From Planctomycetota bacterium (GTDB lineage Bacteria; Planctomycetota; UBA8742; JACQVU01; JANLHZ01): a DNA stretch of 42,270 bases. The stretch is taken from contig JANLHZ010000083.1 in NCBI GenBank assembly GCA_024653775.1, positions 1 through 42,270 on the forward strand, in the 5' to 3' direction. A program made the position numbers and the translations under genes. Below, one piece after another: positions 14,399 through 40,996 of this stretch. Position 1 is the first letter of the stretch. Every line of letters starts with the position of its first letter. The notes under the pieces are model-generated. The model was not told where the DNA came from. It did not search any database and was given only the letters and a program-made list of their open reading frames with translations.

Positions 14399-14752
14399 GT
14401 TTGCGTTACAGGGATCGAACAAGTTTGGGAGCGGTATCGTTAATACTTTCGCGCGTTTCGTTCGCTGCCTCGACAATGTTCGGTAGGCGATCTCTGAAGC
14501 GAACAGGAAAACCGCAGGATGAAAGGAACTATTTTCGCGGGAATCCGACTCGGATCATTTTTTTCAATTTTGCCTGCAACCAACGAGAGGCGCGCGTCGT
14601 CTATTAACGCAGCCGCAAAAAAGATTCGCGAACGTCAAATCGTCGGCTGACAGGTTTTCGTTTACATGGCGGTGAGTGGTCGCGGTTGTTCGCCCCGGTA
14701 ACTGCGCATTACAGCAATTCGAACTTCATTGAGTTCCGAAAGGAGAGATGGT
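14399..14752. other. Intergenic region after recA with weak terminator candidate
   Basis: The 354-bp gap has no convincing gene. A short hairpin ATCCG-ACT-CGGAT at 14543-14555, followed by CA and seven T (14558-14564), is the only terminator-like element, about 145 bp after the recA stop. The ribosome site AAAGGAGAG for the next gene lies at 14738-14746. Confidence 0.4.
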
Positions 14753-17443
14753 ATGTCCAGAAAGTACCTGATAGCTTTGTTTTTGATCATCGTCGCGATT
14801 TCGTATTCCACCGTAACAGTCTTGACCCCGGAGAACACGGGATCGGAATACGCGAGCATTAACGCTGTAGTCGAACGCCAAACAGGTGGGATCGAGGAAG
14901 ATGCCCGGCATTCCGACAATAGCGCCACTCCCGCGCCACAGGACGCGATTGCAGAGGAACCGGTTGTAGTCGGGACGGCGAACGAGTTTAACGAACTCGC
15001 CCCTTCGGACTCGAATTCAATGTTTGACGTACCGCATCCGAACGTCGGCGCGTCAGCCCTCAGCCTTGGAAGTTCCGGCGCGACGCGATATGCAGGGAGA
15101 ACGGATGAGCCGGCCTACACACCAGCACCCGTGCAACGTGGGGACGGAAGCGCCCCGAATCGACAGCCTGACGCCAGATCACCCGCGAACAGCGAAGAAC
15201 TCGTGTTCATACCCCGCGATCGAGAACCTTCCGGGATGACCCGCGATCCGGAAATCACCACGGGCAAGCTCATCGCGAAGGACTCTGAAGGAAGAAGCCT
15301 CGCCGAGTTTCCGCTGAAGCACACGGACGTCTCGGGCAGGATCAGCGGACCGCTCGCGGGAGTTTCCGTTACGCAGATTTTCGAGAACGATTTCAATTGC
15401 CCGATCGAGGCCGTGTACGTGTTCCCGCTGTCGAACCACGGCGCGGTGAACGAATTCGTCATGCGCGTCGGAGGCCGGACCATCCGCGGCATCGTCCGCG
15501 AACGCGAGGAAGCCGAAAGGCTTTACAATCAGGCGAGGCAGCAGGGTCGCACCGCGAGCCTTCTGACGCAGGAAAGGCCGAACATCTTTACGCAGAAAGT
15601 CGCGAACATCCCCGCGGGCGAACGCGTCAGCGTCGAGATTCGTTACGTCGAACGCCTCGCTTACGACGCCGGTCTGTATTCGTTCCATTTCCCGATGGTC
15701 GTCGCGCCGAGGTATATCAACGGCGGCGCGGGCGAGCGGATAATCGGGGCGTCGCAGGCGTCATCGACGTCGGGAGATCCGCGGGTTATCGATTCTACGC
15801 AGGCGCCCACTTCCGCGGTTCCGGATGCGCACAGAATCACCCCGCCGACTCTCGCGCCGGGGATGCGCTCGTCGAACGAGGTTTCGCTCAATATCGAGGT
15901 CGACGCGGGGCTTCCGATAGTCGAATGGAAGTGCCCGAGCCACCTCGTAAAGTTCGAGCGCGACGAGGAAAGTCCGGCGAAAGCGAAAATCAGTCTCGCG
16001 AATGAAAACGGCGTGATCGCGAACTCGGACTTCGTGTTCCAGTTCAAGACATCCGCGGACAGGCCGGACGCGAGTCTGCTTACGTACTCCGGAAACGAAG
16101 GCGACTTCTTCATGTTGACGCTCGAGCCGCCTGTGACGATTTCCGCGGAGGATACGGTTGGCCGCGAAATGATCTTCGTGCTCGACTGCTCGGGAAGCAT
16201 GAACGGCGCGCCGATAACGAAGTGCAAGGAGGCGATCCGTTACGCCATCGACAATCTGAACCCGCAGGACACGTTCAACATTCTGCGGTTCAGCGAGCGG
16301 GCAAGCGGGTTCCGCAATCAGCCCGTGCCCGCGACCAGCGAGAATAAACGCGCGGGACTCGATTATGTTTTGACGCTCAGTGGTCAGGGCGGGACGAATA
16401 TGATCGAAGGGATCAAGGCCGCGCTCGACTTCGAGCACGACTCCGCGAAGATGCGCATCGTCAACTTCATGACCGACGGCCTCATAGGCGACGAGAACAC
16501 CATCCTCCGCGCGATTGGCGAAAAGCTCCGGGACTCGAGGCTCTACAGCTTCGGAATCGGATCGAGCGTCAACCGCCACCTGCTGGACGAGATGGCGAAG
16601 GTCGGTCGCGGCTACGTCACCTACGTCCGTCAGGACGAGAACTCCGAGGACGCGGTCGAACGCTTCTACAGCCGGGTGCGATCGCCCGCGCTTTACAACG
16701 TGAAAATCGAGTTCGAAGGATTGGCAGTGACGGACGTCTATCCGAAGCTCATTCCGGACCTTTTCTGCGCCCAGCCCGTGGTGGTGACGGGACGGATTCT
16801 CTCCCGCGAAGGCGGAAGCCACCGCGCGATTCTCTCCGGCCAGCTTCGCAGCGAAACGTGGCGCAAGAGCTTCCCGCTGAACGTCGATCCGGAAGTCAAT
16901 ACGAAGGCGCTTGCGTACATCTGGGCGCGGGACAAGATCGACGACCTGAGCGAGCAGCTTCGGAACACCGGAAACCGCGCTCTGGTTGCGCAGATTCGCG
17001 ATCTCGCGGTGGATTTCCAGATCGTCAGCCAGTACACCGCGTTCGTCGCGGTCGACTCGGAGGGCGAACGCCAGTCGCAGCCCTCGATGCGCGTCGATCA
17101 GCCCGTCGAGATGGCGGAAGGCGTCACGTACTCCGGAACCCTCGGCGTGGACGGAGGTCCAAGCGACGGAGCGCTGATCCTTCGCGTACCGCAGCTAGGA
17201 CTGACTCTCGAACAGACTCTTTCGGGCGACGTCGTGATCCGCGAAATCGATTCTTCGAGCGGCCTTCGCGAATCGAGACTCCGCGTGGGCGACTCGATCA
17301 CCGAACTCGGAAGCAGAAGAGTGCGCGGCCTCGCGGACGTCCGCGAGGCGCAGAACCACCTCCGCTCCGGCGAGCTTATCGAAATCCGCGCCTCCCGCGG
17401 ACAGTCGGTCAGCAGCGAAAGCGTTCGCGTGCGGGAAGAGTGA
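14753..17443 (+). CDS. VIT-VWA-PDZ envelope protein
   Basis: An 896-residue protein related to the inter-alpha-trypsin-inhibitor heavy-chain-like proteins found in many bacteria. Order: signal anchor (~4-24), long Pro/Ser-rich linker, VIT domain (~196-321; FENDFNCPIEAVYVFPL and REEAERLYNQARQQG are typical), VWA domain from ~472 with the metal-site motif DCSGSMNG, and a C-terminal PDZ-like domain (~812-896; GLRESRLRVGDSITELG). VWA domains bind protein partners through a divalent metal; the VIT-VWA pair is usually extracytoplasmic. The added PDZ domain suggests recognition of a C-terminal peptide or regulation by one. The ATG at 14753 has a strong AGGAG; an ATG-less upstream extension is not needed. 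No sortase signal is seen. Confidence 0.9.
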   Translation: MSRKYLIALFLIIVAISYSTVTVLTPENTGSEYASINAVVERQTGGIEEDARHSDNSATPAPQDAIAEEPVVVGTANEFNELAPSDSNSMFDVPHPNVGASALSLGSSGATRYAGRTDEPAYTPAPVQRGDGSAPNRQPDARSPANSEELVFIPRDREPSGMTRDPEITTGKLIAKDSEGRSLAEFPLKHTDVSGRISGPLAGVSVTQIFENDFNCPIEAVYVFPLSNHGAVNEFVMRVGGRTIRGIVREREEAERLYNQARQQGRTASLLTQERPNIFTQKVANIPAGERVSVEIRYVERLAYDAGLYSFHFPMVVAPRYINGGAGERIIGASQASSTSGDPRVIDSTQAPTSAVPDAHRITPPTLAPGMRSSNEVSLNIEVDAGLPIVEWKCPSHLVKFERDEESPAKAKISLANENGVIANSDFVFQFKTSADRPDASLLTYSGNEGDFFMLTLEPPVTISAEDTVGREMIFVLDCSGSMNGAPITKCKEAIRYAIDNLNPQDTFNILRFSERASGFRNQPVPATSENKRAGLDYVLTLSGQGGTNMIEGIKAALDFEHDSAKMRIVNFMTDGLIGDENTILRAIGEKLRDSRLYSFGIGSSVNRHLLDEMAKVGRGYVTYVRQDENSEDAVERFYSRVRSPALYNVKIEFEGLAVTDVYPKLIPDLFCAQPVVVTGRILSREGGSHRAILSGQLRSETWRKSFPLNVDPEVNTKALAYIWARDKIDDLSEQLRNTGNRALVAQIRDLAVDFQIVSQYTAFVAVDSEGERQSQPSMRVDQPVEMAEGVTYSGTLGVDGGPSDGALILRVPQLGLTLEQTLSGDVVIREIDSSSGLRESRLRVGDSITELGSRRVRGLADVREAQNHLRSGELIEIRASRGQSVSSESVRVREE

Positions 17444-17808: not shown

Positions 17809-18065
17809 AACCGTTTCTCCGCCCACGCGATCCGGCTACATGATACTGCCTGCTGTGCCGGAACTCAGCCCTGCGCCTCAGGGTGAAGGATTTAGTCCGC
17901 GGTGTTACGGAGGACCACTTCCTCTTTTTCTTGTATTGCAAACCGAGTTTGTCGATAATACCCCATGTCGAAGATCCCAAAAAATTACGCATGGGCGAAC
18001 TTGACATAAATCGCAATCCTCATAGAATCGTTACGTCTCCCTTACACGATTAGAAGAGTGGACTG

Positions 18066-18779
18066 ATGGATCGTTCCCGGCTCGGCGAAATACTGCTTAA
18101 AAGCGGCAAGATTACGGAAACGCAACTCAAGACCGCGGTCAAGTACCAGGAGTCCACGGGTCACAAGCTGGACGTCATCGTTACGAAGCTCGGGTTCATC
18201 TCCGACGTCGAGCTTACGAAGCTCATCGCGGAGGCGCAGCATCTCGATGTCGTCGATCCATTTGAAATCCAGATTCCTGACAGCGCCCACGCTACGCTTT
18301 CCGAAGAAGTCGTGCGGAAGCATCAGATCGTGCCTATAAAGCTTGAAGGGGAGACGCTCACCGTGATAATGAGCGATCCGACGGACATCGAGTCTCTGGA
18401 GGAGATCCAGTTCCGGACGGGACTTCGGGTCGAGGTCGTGCTCGCCGCGAGGAACCAGATAACGAAATTCATTACGCAGTACTACGACAAGACTCTCAAA
18501 AAGCCCGGCAAGAAGAAAGAACCCAAGATTGAGGAGGCTGCGCCCGCTCCGGCTGCGGCGCAGGCCGCCCCGGCTGCCGCGCCCGCTCTCGCGCCGAAAG
18601 ACGACGCCGCGCCGAGGCGAGAGACGAAGAAGACGAAGGCGCCGACCGCGACGCTTGGCGTCAATTTCGAGCTTACAAGCTGGGAAATGCGCCGGGCGCT
18701 GATCCCTCTGCTTATCGACAAGGGAATCATCACCAGGGAAGAACTCGAGGAAAAGGCCGGCTCGATGTTCGGCGAATAA
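18066..18779 (+). CDS. Stand-alone MshEN (GspE N-terminal) domain protein
   Basis: A 237-residue protein whose first ~145 residues form an MshEN/T2SSE_N domain, the c-di-GMP-binding module normally found at the N-terminus of type II secretion and type IV pilus ATPases. The two motif halves start RLGEILLKSGKITETQL (5-21) and KLDVIVTKLGFISDVEL (36-52), and the second half ends IVPIKLEGETLTVIMSDPTD (about 95-114). An Ala/Pro/Lys linker (~150-200) leads to a short C-terminal helical tail (LIDKGIITREELEEKAGSMF). No ATPase is attached or adjacent. It ends 45 bp before the HU-receiver-kinase fusion gene on the same strand, suggesting a shared operon that links c-di-GMP to that protein. Confidence 0.8.
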   Translation: MDRSRLGEILLKSGKITETQLKTAVKYQESTGHKLDVIVTKLGFISDVELTKLIAEAQHLDVVDPFEIQIPDSAHATLSEEVVRKHQIVPIKLEGETLTVIMSDPTDIESLEEIQFRTGLRVEVVLAARNQITKFITQYYDKTLKKPGKKKEPKIEEAAPAPAAAQAAPAAAPALAPKDDAAPRRETKKTKAPTATLGVNFELTSWEMRRALIPLLIDKGIITREELEEKAGSMFGE

Positions 18780-18824
18780 TCAGATTTATAGGAAGCCCCC
18801 TTCCATCCTTTTCGAAATTCATCA

Positions 18825-20183
18825 ATGGGCGCGATTGTAAACACCGAAAATTTTGTAGACGAAATCAGCCAGAACCTCGGCTTCGGGAGGGATCAGGTTT
18901 CGAAAGCGCTCGCAGGCGTGCGGGACTTCTGTATCGAGAATCTCGCGAAGGGAGAGGACGTCGGTTTTGCCGGTTTCGCCAAGCTGAAGTTGCTCGATAA
19001 GAACAACACAGCGACCGTGACGATCCCGCAGGCGGACACGATCGGGCAGATAACGAAGGATTCGAGGCTCACGAGCCAGCAGGCCCAGCAGGTCGTGATG
19101 ACCTTCCTCGACAAGTTCCGCGTGCATCTGCTGCAGGGCCAGCGGGTCAACCTCGACAACTTCATAAGCGTTATGGTCGTCGAGGAGAAGGCGAAGATCG
19201 TCAAGGACGAAATTTCCGGACAAAGGCTCATCGCGCCTTCGAAGAACCGCATCTCCTTCGGGCTTCACGAGGAAGTCCGCGCGAGGCTCAGCGACGCTCC
19301 CGTGGCGTTTCTTCCCGCGAAGACGCTCAAGGAGCAGATGCAGCAGATGAAGACTTCGAGCATCCTGCTCGTGGTTCCGGGGAAAGATTTCTTCACCGAC
19401 ATCATCGAATATCACTTCCGAAAAGCCGGGTGGGTGGTCGATACCACCACCGACACCGCCGCGGCGCTCGAGCACGTAGGAGCGAAGGGCGCGTACCTCG
19501 TTCTGCTCGACATGAACGTGAAGGGCGCGGCTCCGTTCATCGAAAAGCTGAAGCTCGGCAGGACGTCGAGCCTGATTCCGCTTATGATGATGTTCGCGGG
19601 CGGGACCGATGTTTCGAAGCCCACAGGGTTCCGAATCTGCGGGAACGAAAGCCTCGTCCAGCCGTTCGAAGTCAAGAACCTCCTTACTGTCGCGGAGGCC
19701 GAACTCGCCCGCGCGGCGGAGGAAGAGATCATCTTCGAGCAGGAGGTCCAGTTCCAGTTTCCGACTGACGACGCGATGATCGACAAGGCGTTCGAGGTTG
19801 CCGCGTCGCTGTTCGAGGGCAGCGGACTCGACGAGGAAGGCCAGGTTGCTCTCAGCGCGGCGTTCCGCGAGGCCGTCCAGAACGCGGCCCAGCACGGAAA
19901 CCGCTACCGTCACGACAAGATCATCGACGTGCTCTATCTCCTCGACAAGGAAAAGATCACGCTGAATATCACCGACCAGGGCGCGGGGTTCGACCATCGA
20001 AATTACATCCAGCGCGGCCACGACGGAAACGCCATCGCCGCCGCGCGAGAACGCCACGCGGAAGGCAAGATGGGCGGCCTCGGGATCATGCTGATGCTGA
20101 AGTGCTGCGATCGCATCGAGTACAACGAAGCCGGAAACGCGATCACGCTCACGAAGTTCCTCGACTCGAACAGCCGGGGCTGA
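18825..20183 (+). CDS. HU-HU-receiver-HATPase fusion protein
   Basis: A 452-residue protein of unusual composition. Residues ~7-57 match the N-terminal half of HU/IHF (FVDEISQNLGFGRDQVSKAL...LAKGEDVGFAGFAKLKL). Residues ~79-155 give a second HU-like unit (LTSQQAQQVV...LLQGQRVNLDNF...SGQRLIAPSKNRISF), the beta-arm part being clearest. Residues ~178-290 are receiver-like with D229 in VLLDMN, but the usual DD pocket and the Lys-Pro pair are altered (VQPF). Residues ~305-446 are an RsbW/SpoIIAB-type ATPase: N353 in AFREAVQNAAQHGN, D384 in TDQGAGFD, and GGLGIMLM. A protein that may bind DNA and also act as an anti-sigma-type kinase or ATP switch is suggested. The start at 18825 (ATG, no strong ribosome site) follows the MshEN gene by 45 bp. 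Confidence 0.8.
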   Translation: MGAIVNTENFVDEISQNLGFGRDQVSKALAGVRDFCIENLAKGEDVGFAGFAKLKLLDKNNTATVTIPQADTIGQITKDSRLTSQQAQQVVMTFLDKFRVHLLQGQRVNLDNFISVMVVEEKAKIVKDEISGQRLIAPSKNRISFGLHEEVRARLSDAPVAFLPAKTLKEQMQQMKTSSILLVVPGKDFFTDIIEYHFRKAGWVVDTTTDTAAALEHVGAKGAYLVLLDMNVKGAAPFIEKLKLGRTSSLIPLMMMFAGGTDVSKPTGFRICGNESLVQPFEVKNLLTVAEAELARAAEEEIIFEQEVQFQFPTDDAMIDKAFEVAASLFEGSGLDEEGQVALSAAFREAVQNAAQHGNRYRHDKIIDVLYLLDKEKITLNITDQGAGFDHRNYIQRGHDGNAIAAARERHAEGKMGGLGIMLMLKCCDRIEYNEAGNAITLTKFLDSNSRG

Positions 20184-20211
20184 CGAATTCCGAAGAGGCT
20201 CGAAACGTCTT

Positions 20212-20234
20212 GCCGCGTCGATCGCGGCGTTTTT
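20212..20234 (+). terminator. Intrinsic terminator of the HU-receiver-HATPase gene
   Basis: GCCGCG-TCGAT-CGCGGC followed by GTTTTT, 28 bp after the stop at 20183. It lies in the short gap to the convergent lipoprotein gene. Confidence 0.75.
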
Positions 20235-29222: not shown

Positions 29223-29657
29223 ATGATTCACTTCAGGCTCTTGAGTTTTCTTCCCTTGCTGCTGCTCTGCTCCGGCTGCGCAACGATTTTTTCAGGCAGC
29301 GAAAGAGAAGTGCGGTTCGAATCTTCGATTCAAGGAACGCAAGTACAGGTGGATGGCGGGCAGTGGTGGCCTACGCCGACGACGCTTACTCTCGGAACCG
29401 ATAAAACGCATTCAGTCGCGTTTCAGCATCCGGACGGCACGCCTCAAAGTTCGGGGGCAGTGAATCAGCATTTCAATCCCGTCGCGCTTTTCAACCTGAT
29501 TGGACCGATACCGTGGCTTGTGGATATATTAACCGGTGCGATGTGGAAGCTGGATCAGGTTGTCACCGATCCCGCGATGCCGTCAGTCGGCAGCGCCTAC
29601 GGAGGCGGAGGATACGGCAGACAGCAACAACCGGCGGGACGACAAAGCGGGTGGTAG
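29223..29657 (+). CDS. Small lipoprotein, GCATIxSG family (second copy)
   Basis: A 144-residue lipoprotein with a short signal peptide and lipobox LCSG|C19, then GCATIFSGSEREVRFESS, V-x-V-D-G, P-T motif, FQHPDG and a hydrophobic stretch ending PWLVDILTGAMWKLDQV. All these blocks appear in order in the lipoprotein at 20239-20709, so the two are paralogues. The C-tail here is Gly/Gln-rich (GGGGYGRQQQPAGR). ATG 29223 follows GGAGG. It is 49 bp ahead of the clostripain-like gene and probably co-transcribed. Confidence 0.8.
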   Translation: MIHFRLLSFLPLLLLCSGCATIFSGSEREVRFESSIQGTQVQVDGGQWWPTPTTLTLGTDKTHSVAFQHPDGTPQSSGAVNQHFNPVALFNLIGPIPWLVDILTGAMWKLDQVVTDPAMPSVGSAYGGGGYGRQQQPAGRQSGW

Positions 29658-29706
29658 CGGGGTAATGTTCACTCGAAAGTTTAGATCGGGTTTGGAAGGA
29701 GTAATT

Positions 29707-31971
29707 ATGTCGAGGTGTCATTCACGGATGTCTCTTTTGATAGTTGTAACTTCGCTTCTTGTCGCCGCTCTCGCCTGCGTCGGCGGGGGAGGGGGTAGTG
29801 GCGGAGGTGGAAACTCTCTAACCCCAACTTCGCCGCCCAATGCCCCAGTAATCGCTCTATCGTCTACCGACGATGGAAGCGTAACAATCGCTTGGACCAG
29901 CGTATCCGGCTCGACGTCGTATTCGATGTATTACGGCACAAGCGCCGGCGTAACGGTGTCTTTGGGAACGAAAATCGCGAATGTTTCAAGTCCATATACG
30001 AAGACAGGACTTTCTAATAGCGTGATTCACTATTTCGTTGTTACCGCAATCAACGCGGCGGGAGAATCGTCCGTTTCCAACGAAATTTCAGCTACACCTA
30101 AAAAACAGACATGGACGATAATGGTTTACGGTCACGGCGATCATAATCTTACGCTTTCGTTGTACAATGACATGATCGAAATGGAAGCGGTGGGATCGAA
30201 CGCCGATTTTTCAATCGTCGTAGGTGCAGATTACAATGCGACAGAGGCGCAAGCATACCAACTCCCAACAACTTATCGAACACCAGGTTTTTTCGAATTC
30301 TTGCTGCAGACGAATTCGAATCTGAATGCCCTGGTGAGTCAACCCGTTACGACCACCGAAAAAAACCTTGACGATCCCAATGTGCTTTCGACTTTCATCT
30401 TGAATTCTATTACCCAATATCCCGCAGATCGCTACGGACTCGTGCTCTGGAATCACGGAGGTCAATGGAGCGCTGCGTTTGGGGGGGACCAGCAGGATGG
30501 CGGTGGTTCGCCGCCACTAGGCAATTTATCGCTTTCATCCCTGAAGCAGGCAATATCGAGTTCCATTGCGCAGTCCGGCATTTCAAAACTCGATTTCATC
30601 GGAATGGATACCTGTCTTAACGGGGCGGTCGAATTCATATCGGCATTTGCGACGCTTGCGGACGTATATATTGCCTGTCCCGAAGTAGACTTTGGCGCGG
30701 GGTGGGATTACACCGCGACCCTCGGATATCTGAAATCCAACCCGGGCGCTTCGATTACTCAGTTCGCAACGCAAGAAGTCGCGCACTGGCGGGCGCACCA
30801 CTTTACTGCAAACTCTCCTGACGATATGACGCTGGGAGCGCACGCGGCTTACGATTTGACCCGCGTAAATTCGTTTCAAGTTGCTCTTGACGCTTTCAGC
30901 GATGCGTTAACGCCTGCGATGGTTCTGGAGTCGGAACAAATCGCCAGGATTCGTCGTTCCAGCAATATGTATTCGATGAACGTCGCGGAACTCGACTCCC
31001 CGACTCCGTATGTCGACCTCGGCGACTTCGTCTCGAAAATCGCGGCGCAATCCTCGGACTCGTCGCTGGTAAGCGCTGCTCAAAGTCTCTCCACCGAGAT
31101 AAACTCACTTGTGATTTCCGCGGCGAAGGGAAGCGCGCGAAATGACGCATCGGGACTTAGCATATACTTCCCGGCGAATTGGTGGACTGATTCGACGGAG
31201 TCCGCATATATAACGCAGGACTTTAACAATTATAAACTTACGAACATCGCTACGTCTTCTCGCTGGGACGAATTCTTAAACGATTATTTCGTCAATTACT
31301 GGCAAGCGGACGGGCAAGCCCCGACGGTTGTCGTTACTCCCGGCAATTCATTTGGTGTTACTGTGAGCAACCCCGCGACGGGGACGATTGCAGTTTCCGG
31401 AAGCGACGCGAATTCGCTTTCGTTATCAGCGTGGCAAGAAACGTCGCCTGGGAGTAAAATCTATCTCGACTTTGGAGAATTCGACAACATAGAGGTCTCC
31501 GGTAGTGCATACTCCTATACTTGGGATGGCCAAGGACTTATTGTTTCAGACGGCACGAACGCTTCGTATATGAGTGGACGTTTCGCATACCCCGGCGCAT
31601 CCATTTACTATTGCGAGGCAGTCTTGACGACTGTTTCCGGCTCACAGGACGTTCTTCTGGTTCTTGACACAAATTCAGGACTTCTGGTGAATGCGCTCGA
31701 TGCGACCAACGCAAGTTTGACCGGGCTTGACGTTTCACCTGGCAATACGATACTTCCCTATTTTTACCAGTACGATCTGAACGGAAGCTCCGGCATGTCG
31801 GTTTCCGTAATTCCAGGGACTACGAATCCAATCGTGGTTCCATCCACGGGGATTTCCGGCTTACAGGTCTATCAAGCTCCACTGCCAACTGGGAACTATT
31901 TGATTTCGCTGTGGACTGACGACGTTTGGGATAATACAGACGTGCAGATGGCGGCTGTGGGCTTGCCGTGA
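29707..31971 (+). CDS. Clostripain-like (C11) cysteine peptidase lipoprotein
   Basis: A 754-residue exported lipoprotein: lipobox ALA|C24, Gly-rich tether (~25-36), one fibronectin-III-like domain (~45-132; VTIAWTSVSGSTSYSMYYG), then a C11 peptidase domain (~134-560) starting TWTIMVYGHGDHNL. The catalytic pair is visible: H250 in VLWNHGGQW and C303 in GMDTCLNG. Such enzymes cut after Arg or Lys. The remaining ~190 residues form a beta-rich tail without recognised motif. ATG 29707 follows GGAAGGAG. Codon use (many TCT, ACA, AAT codons) is less GC-biased than in core genes such as recA, consistent with acquisition. It is convergent with the aconitase-family gene, 23 bp apart. Confidence 0.88.
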   Translation: MSRCHSRMSLLIVVTSLLVAALACVGGGGGSGGGGNSLTPTSPPNAPVIALSSTDDGSVTIAWTSVSGSTSYSMYYGTSAGVTVSLGTKIANVSSPYTKTGLSNSVIHYFVVTAINAAGESSVSNEISATPKKQTWTIMVYGHGDHNLTLSLYNDMIEMEAVGSNADFSIVVGADYNATEAQAYQLPTTYRTPGFFEFLLQTNSNLNALVSQPVTTTEKNLDDPNVLSTFILNSITQYPADRYGLVLWNHGGQWSAAFGGDQQDGGGSPPLGNLSLSSLKQAISSSIAQSGISKLDFIGMDTCLNGAVEFISAFATLADVYIACPEVDFGAGWDYTATLGYLKSNPGASITQFATQEVAHWRAHHFTANSPDDMTLGAHAAYDLTRVNSFQVALDAFSDALTPAMVLESEQIARIRRSSNMYSMNVAELDSPTPYVDLGDFVSKIAAQSSDSSLVSAAQSLSTEINSLVISAAKGSARNDASGLSIYFPANWWTDSTESAYITQDFNNYKLTNIATSSRWDEFLNDYFVNYWQADGQAPTVVVTPGNSFGVTVSNPATGTIAVSGSDANSLSLSAWQETSPGSKIYLDFGEFDNIEVSGSAYSYTWDGQGLIVSDGTNASYMSGRFAYPGASIYYCEAVLTTVSGSQDVLLVLDTNSGLLVNALDATNASLTGLDVSPGNTILPYFYQYDLNGSSGMSVSVIPGTTNPIVVPSTGISGLQVYQAPLPTGNYLISLWTDDVWDNTDVQMAAVGLP

Positions 31972-39298: not shown

Positions 39299-40996
39299 TT
39301 ACTGGAGGAGAGAGAGAACCGCCTGAGGAATGAGGTTCGCACTCGCCAGCACAGAGGTTCCGGCCTGGAACATGATCTGCGCTTTCGTGAAGTCCGTGGT
39401 CTCGGCTGCGAAGTCGAGATCGCGGATGGAGCTTTCGCTTGCGCTGAGGTTCTGAGCGGCAATCGACAGCGAAGCGATGGCGGTATCCAGAGTATTCTTC
39501 TGGACGCTGCCAAGGAAGCTGCGCATATCGTTTACCTGATCGAGAGCCTCGTCGACGATGAACAGGGCGTTAGCCGCGTTCTCGGTGAGATCGCTTCCCG
39601 CGCCGCTGCGGATGTCCGATAGGAACCCGCCCTGCATCAGGATTCCGTTCGATCCTGCGGTATCGAGCGGATTTTCACGCTCGACGACGCGTCCGAGTTC
39701 GCTGGAACGGAGCGACGAGATCGCGACTGAGACGCGGTCGATGCTGGTGGACTCGGAGTTGATCTGGAAGGTGAGACCAGAGTTCGAGTTGTGCAGCACG
39801 CGGAACTGGATTCCGCTACCCGCGAGACTTCCGCTGATGGAGTTCGTGGCGCTGTTGGACGCGATCTGGTAGAGCCTTTCAGACAGAACGATGTCCGCAT
39901 CGAGGAAGTTCGACGTGACGTGGACCTCGTAGCCGTCAGCCACGACAACCGCGCCGTCGATTCTTGCATCGACGTCATCCCCTGTGTCGGCGGTATAGAA
40001 TCCCTGCTGAACGAGACCCGTGTTGTAGGTTCCGGACGTGGATTCGAAGATACCGACGATACCGACGTTGCTTCCGCTCGCGGTGATGTTCTCGACCGAG
40101 ATGGTCTGATCGCTACCGAAGCCGACGGAGTACAGCGCGAAGCTGAATCCCGTGGCGTCGGTCGCGACGCCGCCCGGCAGATTGACGGGAGCGCTGGACG
40201 CGAAGACGCCTGTAGAACTCGTCGCAGCGTTGACTGCGGTGACGAGATCGCGGATCGTGGCGCCCGACGCGAGAGCGATGTCCTCGGAACCGAGCGAGCC
40301 AGTGATCCTGAGGCTTGCGACCTGACCCGATGAAAGCACGCCCGACGTGGTGTTCGACACGATGACGGTGTTCGACGACACGCGACCGGACTGAGACTTC
40401 GCGCCGGTTGTCGCCGGGCCGCCGCCGGAGACGAGCTTCAACGTCGCGCGGGACGCGAGATCATGCACCTTCAGCTTGAACAGGATCGAGCTCTGGTTGT
40501 TGGCGAAGCGTACGCTACGGACCTTGAGGTCGTCGATGAGCGCGTGCCTGCTGCGAACCTGGAAATCGCTGTCGCCGTTCAGAAGGTTGCGGCTTGCGAA
40601 ACGGGTGGTCACCGCGATGCGATCGATCGCTCCGATCGCGCGGTCGACGGACCTCTGTTCCGCCGCGATCTGTTCCGGGGTGCTCGCGCCCGTGTTCATC
40701 GCGAAGACGATGCTTTCGCGAATTCCGACGAGAAGCGAGTTGACCTCGTTGAGAGCCGCTTCGGAAGTGTTGATGAGATTGACGTCGTTCTGCGCGTTCT
40801 TGATCGACTGCTTGATGCTTCCGATCTGAGTGCGGAGCTGCTCGCTGATGACGAGACCGCTCGGATCGTCGGACGCGCGGTTGATGCGAAGACCGGTGGA
40901 AAGCCTCTCGAGAGACCCCCTCTGCATGCTGTCCGTCCTGTGCAGGTTGCGCAGGGCTTCGAGTGCAGAAATGTTGTTGTTAATTCTTAAACCCAT
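39299..40996 (-). CDS. fliC: Flagellin
   Basis: A 565-residue flagellar filament protein. The N-terminal D0/D1 region (MGLRINNNISALEALRNLHR, SLERLSTGLRINRASDDPSG, LRTQIGSIKQSIKNAQNDVN) and the C-terminal region (SAAQNLSASESSIRDLDFAA, ETTDFTKAQIMFQAGTSVLA, LIPQAVLSLLQ) are standard. The central ~140-430 variable part is long and Ser/Thr/Gly-rich, so the filament surface is elaborate. ATG 40996 follows a modest ribosome site (AAGAAAG). No chaperone fliS or cap fliD is adjacent, so the flagellin gene is isolated from a main flagellar cluster. A strong terminator follows. Confidence 0.97.
   Translation of the reverse strand: MGLRINNNISALEALRNLHRTDSMQRGSLERLSTGLRINRASDDPSGLVISEQLRTQIGSIKQSIKNAQNDVNLINTSEAALNEVNSLLVGIRESIVFAMNTGASTPEQIAAEQRSVDRAIGAIDRIAVTTRFASRNLLNGDSDFQVRSRHALIDDLKVRSVRFANNQSSILFKLKVHDLASRATLKLVSGGGPATTGAKSQSGRVSSNTVIVSNTTSGVLSSGQVASLRITGSLGSEDIALASGATIRDLVTAVNAATSSTGVFASSAPVNLPGGVATDATGFSFALYSVGFGSDQTISVENITASGSNVGIVGIFESTSGTYNTGLVQQGFYTADTGDDVDARIDGAVVVADGYEVHVTSNFLDADIVLSERLYQIASNSATNSISGSLAGSGIQFRVLHNSNSGLTFQINSESTSIDRVSVAISSLRSSELGRVVERENPLDTAGSNGILMQGGFLSDIRSGAGSDLTENAANALFIVDEALDQVNDMRSFLGSVQKNTLDTAIASLSIAAQNLSASESSIRDLDFAAETTDFTKAQIMFQAGTSVLASANLIPQAVLSLLQ

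Follow-up and report, generated by a model that had tools for sequence, protein, structure and literature searches.

A conserved two-gene unit of deep-branching Planctomycetota pairing a free MshEN protein with an HU-HU-pseudoreceiver-HATPase fusion, possibly a partner switch

What could be the role of a protein that joins two HU-type units to a receiver and an RsbW-type ATPase, and does it belong with the MshEN protein encoded just upstream? The question is raised by two plus-strand genes, 45 bases apart, in a stretch of 42,270 nucleotides (hereafter the window) from a Planctomycetota genome of 5.4 Mb in 331 contigs, which is 96% complete. An earlier note, made from the letters alone, had proposed that the pair links c-di-GMP and phosphorylation or ATP state to nucleoid binding or sigma-factor release. 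Both open reading frames were confirmed (Table 1) and, together with the promoter-like and terminator-like sites on either side, they plausibly form a two-gene unit. Other genes of the window encode a VIT, VWA and PDZ protein of the inter-alpha-trypsin-inhibitor type, located between recA and the pair, a C11 peptidase of the clostripain family that weakly matches fn3, and a large flagellin (565 amino acids) of this Planctomycetota genome.

Table 1. Features of the MshEN/HU-REC-HATPase locus and other genes of the window.
Feature	Position	Strand	Basis
VIT + VWA + PDZ protein	14729..17443	+	
Promoter-like site TTGACA-N16-TAGAAT	18001..18028	+	37 bases 5' of gene 1; 11/12 matches, consensus match only
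Gene 1, free MshEN protein, 237 aa	18066..18779	+	ORF, Pfam, model (pLDDT 83), best fold match 5htl
MshEN domain, residues 3-144	18072..18497	+	Pfam, model, fold match
c-di-GMP motif I (R5 L6 G7, G14, L21, V25, Q28), intact	18078..18149	+	Compared with the motif of PMC5013675
c-di-GMP motif II (K34 L35 D36, G43, L50, I54, A57), degenerate	18165..18236	+	Compared with the motif of PMC5013675
Disordered Ala/Pro/Lys-rich linker, residues 145-204	18498..18677	+	Model pLDDT about 47-62 over most of the stretch
C-terminal helical hairpin, residues 205-235, ALIPLLIDKGIITREEL	18678..18770	+	Model; recognised in partner proteins
Gene 2, HU-HU-pseudoreceiver-HATPase, 452 aa	18825..20183	+	ORF, Pfam, AlphaFold2, Foldseek
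HU1, residues 1-69, armless	18825..19031	+	Pfam HU-HIG 5-52; AlphaFold2
HU2, residues 70-158, with arm	19032..19298	+	Pfam 71-155; AlphaFold2; family profile against PDB sequences
Degenerate receiver, residues 178-300; Asp229 at 19509-19511	19356..19724	+	NCBIfam, AlphaFold2, alignment
RsbW/SpoIIAB-type HATPase, residues 304-446; N-box E349/N353, G1 D384xGxG, G2 GGLG 417-420	19734..20162	+	Pfam, Foldseek, alignment
Terminator-like stem-loop and T run, 3' of gene 2	20211..20229	+	Consensus match only
Clostripain-family (C11) peptidase	29536..31971	+	
Large flagellin	39299..40996	-	

The domain order read by the earlier note, namely HU1, HU2, degenerate receiver and RsbW/SpoIIAB-type HATPase, was recovered by Pfam, NCBIfam, a family profile and an AlphaFold2 model. 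In Pfam, the 452-residue protein matched Bac_DNA_binding in two stretches (3.7e-16, best 71-155), HU-HIG (1.7e-6, best 5-52) and HATPase_c_2 (4.8e-18 over 312-444), while the receiver was weak there (Response_reg, 0.033) and clearer in NCBIfam (PhoB, 4.1e-10 over 179-301). Comparison of the family profile with PDB sequences returned YycF (2.4e-16), IHF (3e-12) and RsbW (1e-10). The model (mean pLDDT 90.7) contains HU helices and strands at residues 7-67 and 70-154, in keeping with the HU fold expected for residues 1-160, followed by the receiver (179-303) and the HATPase (304-445). Foldseek placed it with LvrC, single-chain IHF, SpoIIAB, RsbW and PhoB-type receivers.

In the model, HU1 lacks a beta arm and the third helix whereas HU2 has both. 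The HU pair aligned with single-chain IHF (2iie) over 213 columns with a TM score of 0.59 to the target, and this whole-length match suggests that the two units pair within the chain. They probably fold together as a single-chain IHF-like clamp which, with an arm on HU2 but none on HU1, would be one-armed. HU2 is weakly basic (median net charge +1, and +2 in the window protein), its beta arm has a net charge of about +3 in most members, and the arm-tip proline, found in 19 of the 42 aligned proteins, is replaced by E129 in the window protein. HU2 with its full arm is kept in single-HU and double-HU forms alike, and in profile comparison it matches IHF and HU proteins that bind DNA. The charge of the arm and the IHF match suggest that this part of the protein may bind DNA, whereas the weak basicity of HU2 and the missing proline speak against it; the chances stand about even.

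Alignment indicated an intact ATP site and a damaged receiver. In the ATPase, E349, N353, H357 and the glycines of G1 and G2 are invariant (42/42) and D384 is kept in 41 of 42 proteins; the domain aligned with RsbW (6m36, TM up to 0.92) and SpoIIAB (1th8, TM 0.81) in Foldseek, so the RsbW-type assignment stands. The receiver retains Asp229, at the phospho-acceptor position, in all 42 proteins and Asp188 in 41, but the acidic pair, the Thr and the Lys are lost in every one; for the window protein, the loss of conserved residues around a kept Asp had already been noticed in the first reading. The acidic pair is mostly replaced by Val/Cys and Pro/Lys, the Thr mostly by Tyr, Leu, Phe or His, and 41 of the 42 proteins have Gln or Glu in place of the Lys. 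As all of these residues are lost, canonical Mg-dependent phosphorylation of the receiver appears unlikely, and the idea that phosphorylation is an input is weakened. Pfam gave no match to HisKA or to another His-bearing dimerisation domain before the ATPase of the 452-residue protein and, HisKA being absent, a histidine kinase identity was rejected.

The product of gene 1 was confirmed as a free MshEN domain with a long disordered linker (Pfam, 4.9e-22), and its model best matched MshE bound to c-di-GMP (5htl, TM 0.87). The C-terminal helical hairpin that follows the linker had escaped the earlier note. Recognition of c-di-GMP by MshEN domains relies on two tandem 24-residue motifs (PMC5013675). 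Motif I is intact in the window protein, but in motif II the Arg, the Gly and the Gln are replaced by K34, D36 and A57, and a relaxed version of the motif passed in both halves in only 2 of 38 MshEN partners; it passes thus in L067 and L070. Since every one of the 60 relatives searched has GGDEF genes, and the window's genome gave 7 matches, c-di-GMP is probably available. The proposal that c-di-GMP is the ligand thus keeps the MshEN fold and motif I in its favour and is weakened by the state of motif II; binding by the window's protein reads as doubtful, and we lean against it.

The linkage of the two genes was found to recur. By HMM search, an MshEN gene lies beside the core gene in 46 of 49 named loci, including L058 where tblastn had missed it; among the 30 loci first sampled it was directly upstream in 27, and at every locus measured it was immediately upstream on the same strand, overlapping the core gene or leaving a zero gap in several members. 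The three remaining loci of the 49 are L039, L055 (cut by a contig end) and the remote relative L082. MshEN is also missing from the HU-type loci L146 and L147, although kilobases of upstream sequence are present. This linkage is far beyond chance. Clustering of neighbours to 8 kb in the named loci revealed no gene besides MshEN that recurs widely across lineages, and a wider conserved operon was rejected. Quick trees of MshEN and of the receiver-ATPase core, both with long branches, are broadly parallel. Matches at E below 1e-40 were found in 96 of 294 sampled Planctomycetota species and, by our own count, included the HU part in 60 of those 96 (60 of the 294 sampled); the named relatives of the gene 2 protein are nearly all from Planctomycetota metagenome assemblies. 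The two-gene unit is conserved in deep-branching Planctomycetota. Other origins were considered and rejected: phage, as phage records gave no match; a defence system, the single PADLOC match being weak and lying over the receiver; and chance or an assembly artefact, the HU-type protein being present in many species.

A wider family, which the earlier note had not seen, carries STAS in place of HU or beside it. Homologues sharing only the receiver-ATPase core have STAS where HU would be (Pfam STAS, 1e-13 to 1e-15); an MshEN gene lies upstream in four of the 17 such loci examined. The gene order MshEN, HU-REC-HATPase, STAS was found in G073, G181 and G153, the first two of which have another MshEN gene after STAS. 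An HU-type or HU-like gene precedes a STAS gene in G050, G032, G060 and G145, in G109 and G215 the gene between MshEN and STAS encodes a bare receiver-ATPase, and a STAS gene lies nearby on the opposite strand in L050 and L066. HU is missing in L080/L127, L135 and L138, which retain the core and MshEN. The separate STAS proteins readable in full have a zinc ribbon as well as a C-terminal region which, at L108 in the window's genome, weakly matches HATPase_c_2. The hairpin of the MshEN protein can be recognised in the partners of HU forms and of STAS forms alike; as the two forms share the receiver-ATPase core, we infer that the hairpin probably docks there. Since MshEN accompanies both branches, the simplest history is that of one MshEN-core unit with an exchanged N-terminal module; on unrooted trees, the exchange may have gone in either direction.

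Some further arrangements were observed among these loci. The second MshEN gene, placed after STAS in G073 and G181, is a longer one. In G050 the sole MshEN gene lies after STAS, with motifs that seem better preserved than those of the window's partner. The MshEN genes after STAS in these three genomes were noted at L143:9083-10447, L145:8753-9184 and, on the minus strand, L101:7165-8199. No STAS match was found on the window contig; two proteins combining STAS, a zinc ribbon and a degenerate HATPase are encoded elsewhere in its genome (contigs C222 and C95; L105 and L108) and are candidate partners. On C95 of this genome (G000), such a gene (L140:5574-7204, minus strand) has a stand-alone HU gene of 89 amino acids after it in the same orientation, an echo of the HU/STAS exchange. 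On contig C281 of the same genome (L142:5240-9861, minus strand), an RsbW-like ORF of 155 amino acids lies beside an ORF of 913 amino acids that resembles a SpoIIE-type phosphatase at its C-terminus. A small STAS gene is close by, and these genes are probably a separate, classical partner-switch set.

STAS proteins are the antagonists and substrates of RsbW-type ATPases, and a partner switch is on this ground the most likely function of the module. The identity of the module is near certain and its link with STAS is likely. The overall model, a bicistronic partner-switch unit combining a kinase/anti-sigma core, an HU/IHF-like module and control by MshEN, seems to us evenly poised between right and wrong. 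The Bergerat-fold ATPase of gene 2, of the RsbW/SpoIIAB/LvrC kind, would bind and probably phosphorylate STAS antagonists, the partner acting here in trans, with the two STAS-zinc-ribbon-degenerate-HATPase proteins as candidates. The degenerate receiver would set the activity of the ATPase, more likely as a docking or allosteric domain than as a phosphorylation site, and the one-armed HU clamp may hold the switch on DNA. The MshEN protein would be the dedicated input, its MshEN domain sensing a ligand that might be c-di-GMP or a relative and its hairpin contacting the receiver-HATPase core. The window's 96% complete genome gave no sigma-B/F/G-type factor above the cut-off and three weaker sigma-70 matches, so that a sigma-factor output is uncertain and the module may have a different one. 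The sigma link suggested by the earlier note is reinforced in its partner-switching part, by the STAS domains that replace or adjoin HU; sigma-factor release itself is conjectural. That the switch is also DNA-bound, with a sigma/STAS-type kinase held on the chromosome by the one-armed IHF-like clamp and switched by MshEN, is a tentative proposal that we regard as possible.

The same core might instead work as a soluble partner-switch kinase, whose HU units have no part in DNA binding and form a scaffold for oligomerisation or protein docking; they could even be merely a dimerisation device. The replacement of HU by STAS, its absence from loci that keep the core and MshEN, the weak net charge, the arm-tip proline lost in many members and the armless HU1 all favour such a scaffold, which we nevertheless consider rather unlikely in view of the full, positively charged arm of HU2, its profile matches to DNA-binding IHF and HU, and its retention by single-HU and double-HU forms. 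A c-di-GMP-controlled nucleoid regulator, in which c-di-GMP-bound MshEN would act through the HATPase to switch the binding of DNA by the HU pair, without sigma or STAS, appears improbable: the same MshEN partner accompanies STAS forms that have no HU, and the degenerate motif II, like the rarity of partners passing in both halves, weighs against it, even if the MshEN fold with its intact motif I, the GGDEF genes of all relatives searched and the resemblance of the HU pair to IHF would fit.

A REC-regulated anti-sigma factor like LvrC, on which a histidine kinase would act through Asp229, is very improbable. It would explain why LvrC (9qih) is the top structural match of the whole gene 2 protein in Foldseek and would agree with the invariant Asp229, but no aligned protein keeps the acidic pair, the Thr or the Lys, the widely recurring neighbour is MshEN and not a kinase, and a sigma-B/F/G-type factor is missing above the cut-off. 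Our preferred reading is the MshEN-controlled partner-switch unit.

Several known systems share parts of this unit. In LvrC of Leptospira, described as a REC-anti-sigma protein, an RsbW-like Bergerat domain likewise comes after a receiver; that receiver is canonical, LvrC works with the kinase LvrB, and the available part of its description reports no HU or MshEN partner (PMC13269768). Gene 2, with no canonical receiver, departs from that type. RsbW and SpoIIAB have the HATPase fold and the invariant ATP boxes in common with gene 2, and their STAS antagonists RsbV and SpoIIAA are paralleled by the STAS domains that relatives carry either joined to this core or next to it. They are, however, single-domain proteins that bind a sigma factor, whereas the gene 2 family has a fused pseudoreceiver with HU or STAS, in a genome with no sigma-B/F/G type above the cut-off in the case of the window. 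Gene 1 shares its fold and motif I with the MshEN receptors MshE, PilB, PilF and NfrB, but is free-standing, ends in the hairpin, carries no ATPase or transferase and has a degenerate motif II. Like HU/IHF and the engineered single-chain IHF (2iie), where two HU units are present per chain in the latter, gene 2 is predicted to adopt the paired fold, but with one arm instead of two, with a fused signalling ATPase and with single-HU relatives. Each domain is thus already known, as is the receiver-ATPase pairing from LvrC, and it is the combination of HU-REC-HATPase with MshEN that is apparently undescribed. The earlier note knew of no protein with this domain order, and no description of the order or of the MshEN partner was found in open-licence papers, a prior mention being possible.

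The unit brings together HU/IHF-like chromosome proteins, partner-switch ATPases and MshEN sensors, which to our knowledge are not known to act together. Planctomycetota have unusual nucleoids and little work has been devoted to their signalling. The series of HU, HU-HU, STAS-fused, STAS-separate and bare-core forms, many with the same MshEN partner, amounts to a natural domain swap and bears on how anti-sigma-type kinases are targeted. How the MshEN domain passes its signal on has been described as obscure (PMC5013675), and the putative docking hairpin of the free MshEN protein could show how this relay works. If the DNA-bound switch is true, a second messenger and the ATP state would act directly on nucleoid structure or local transcription.
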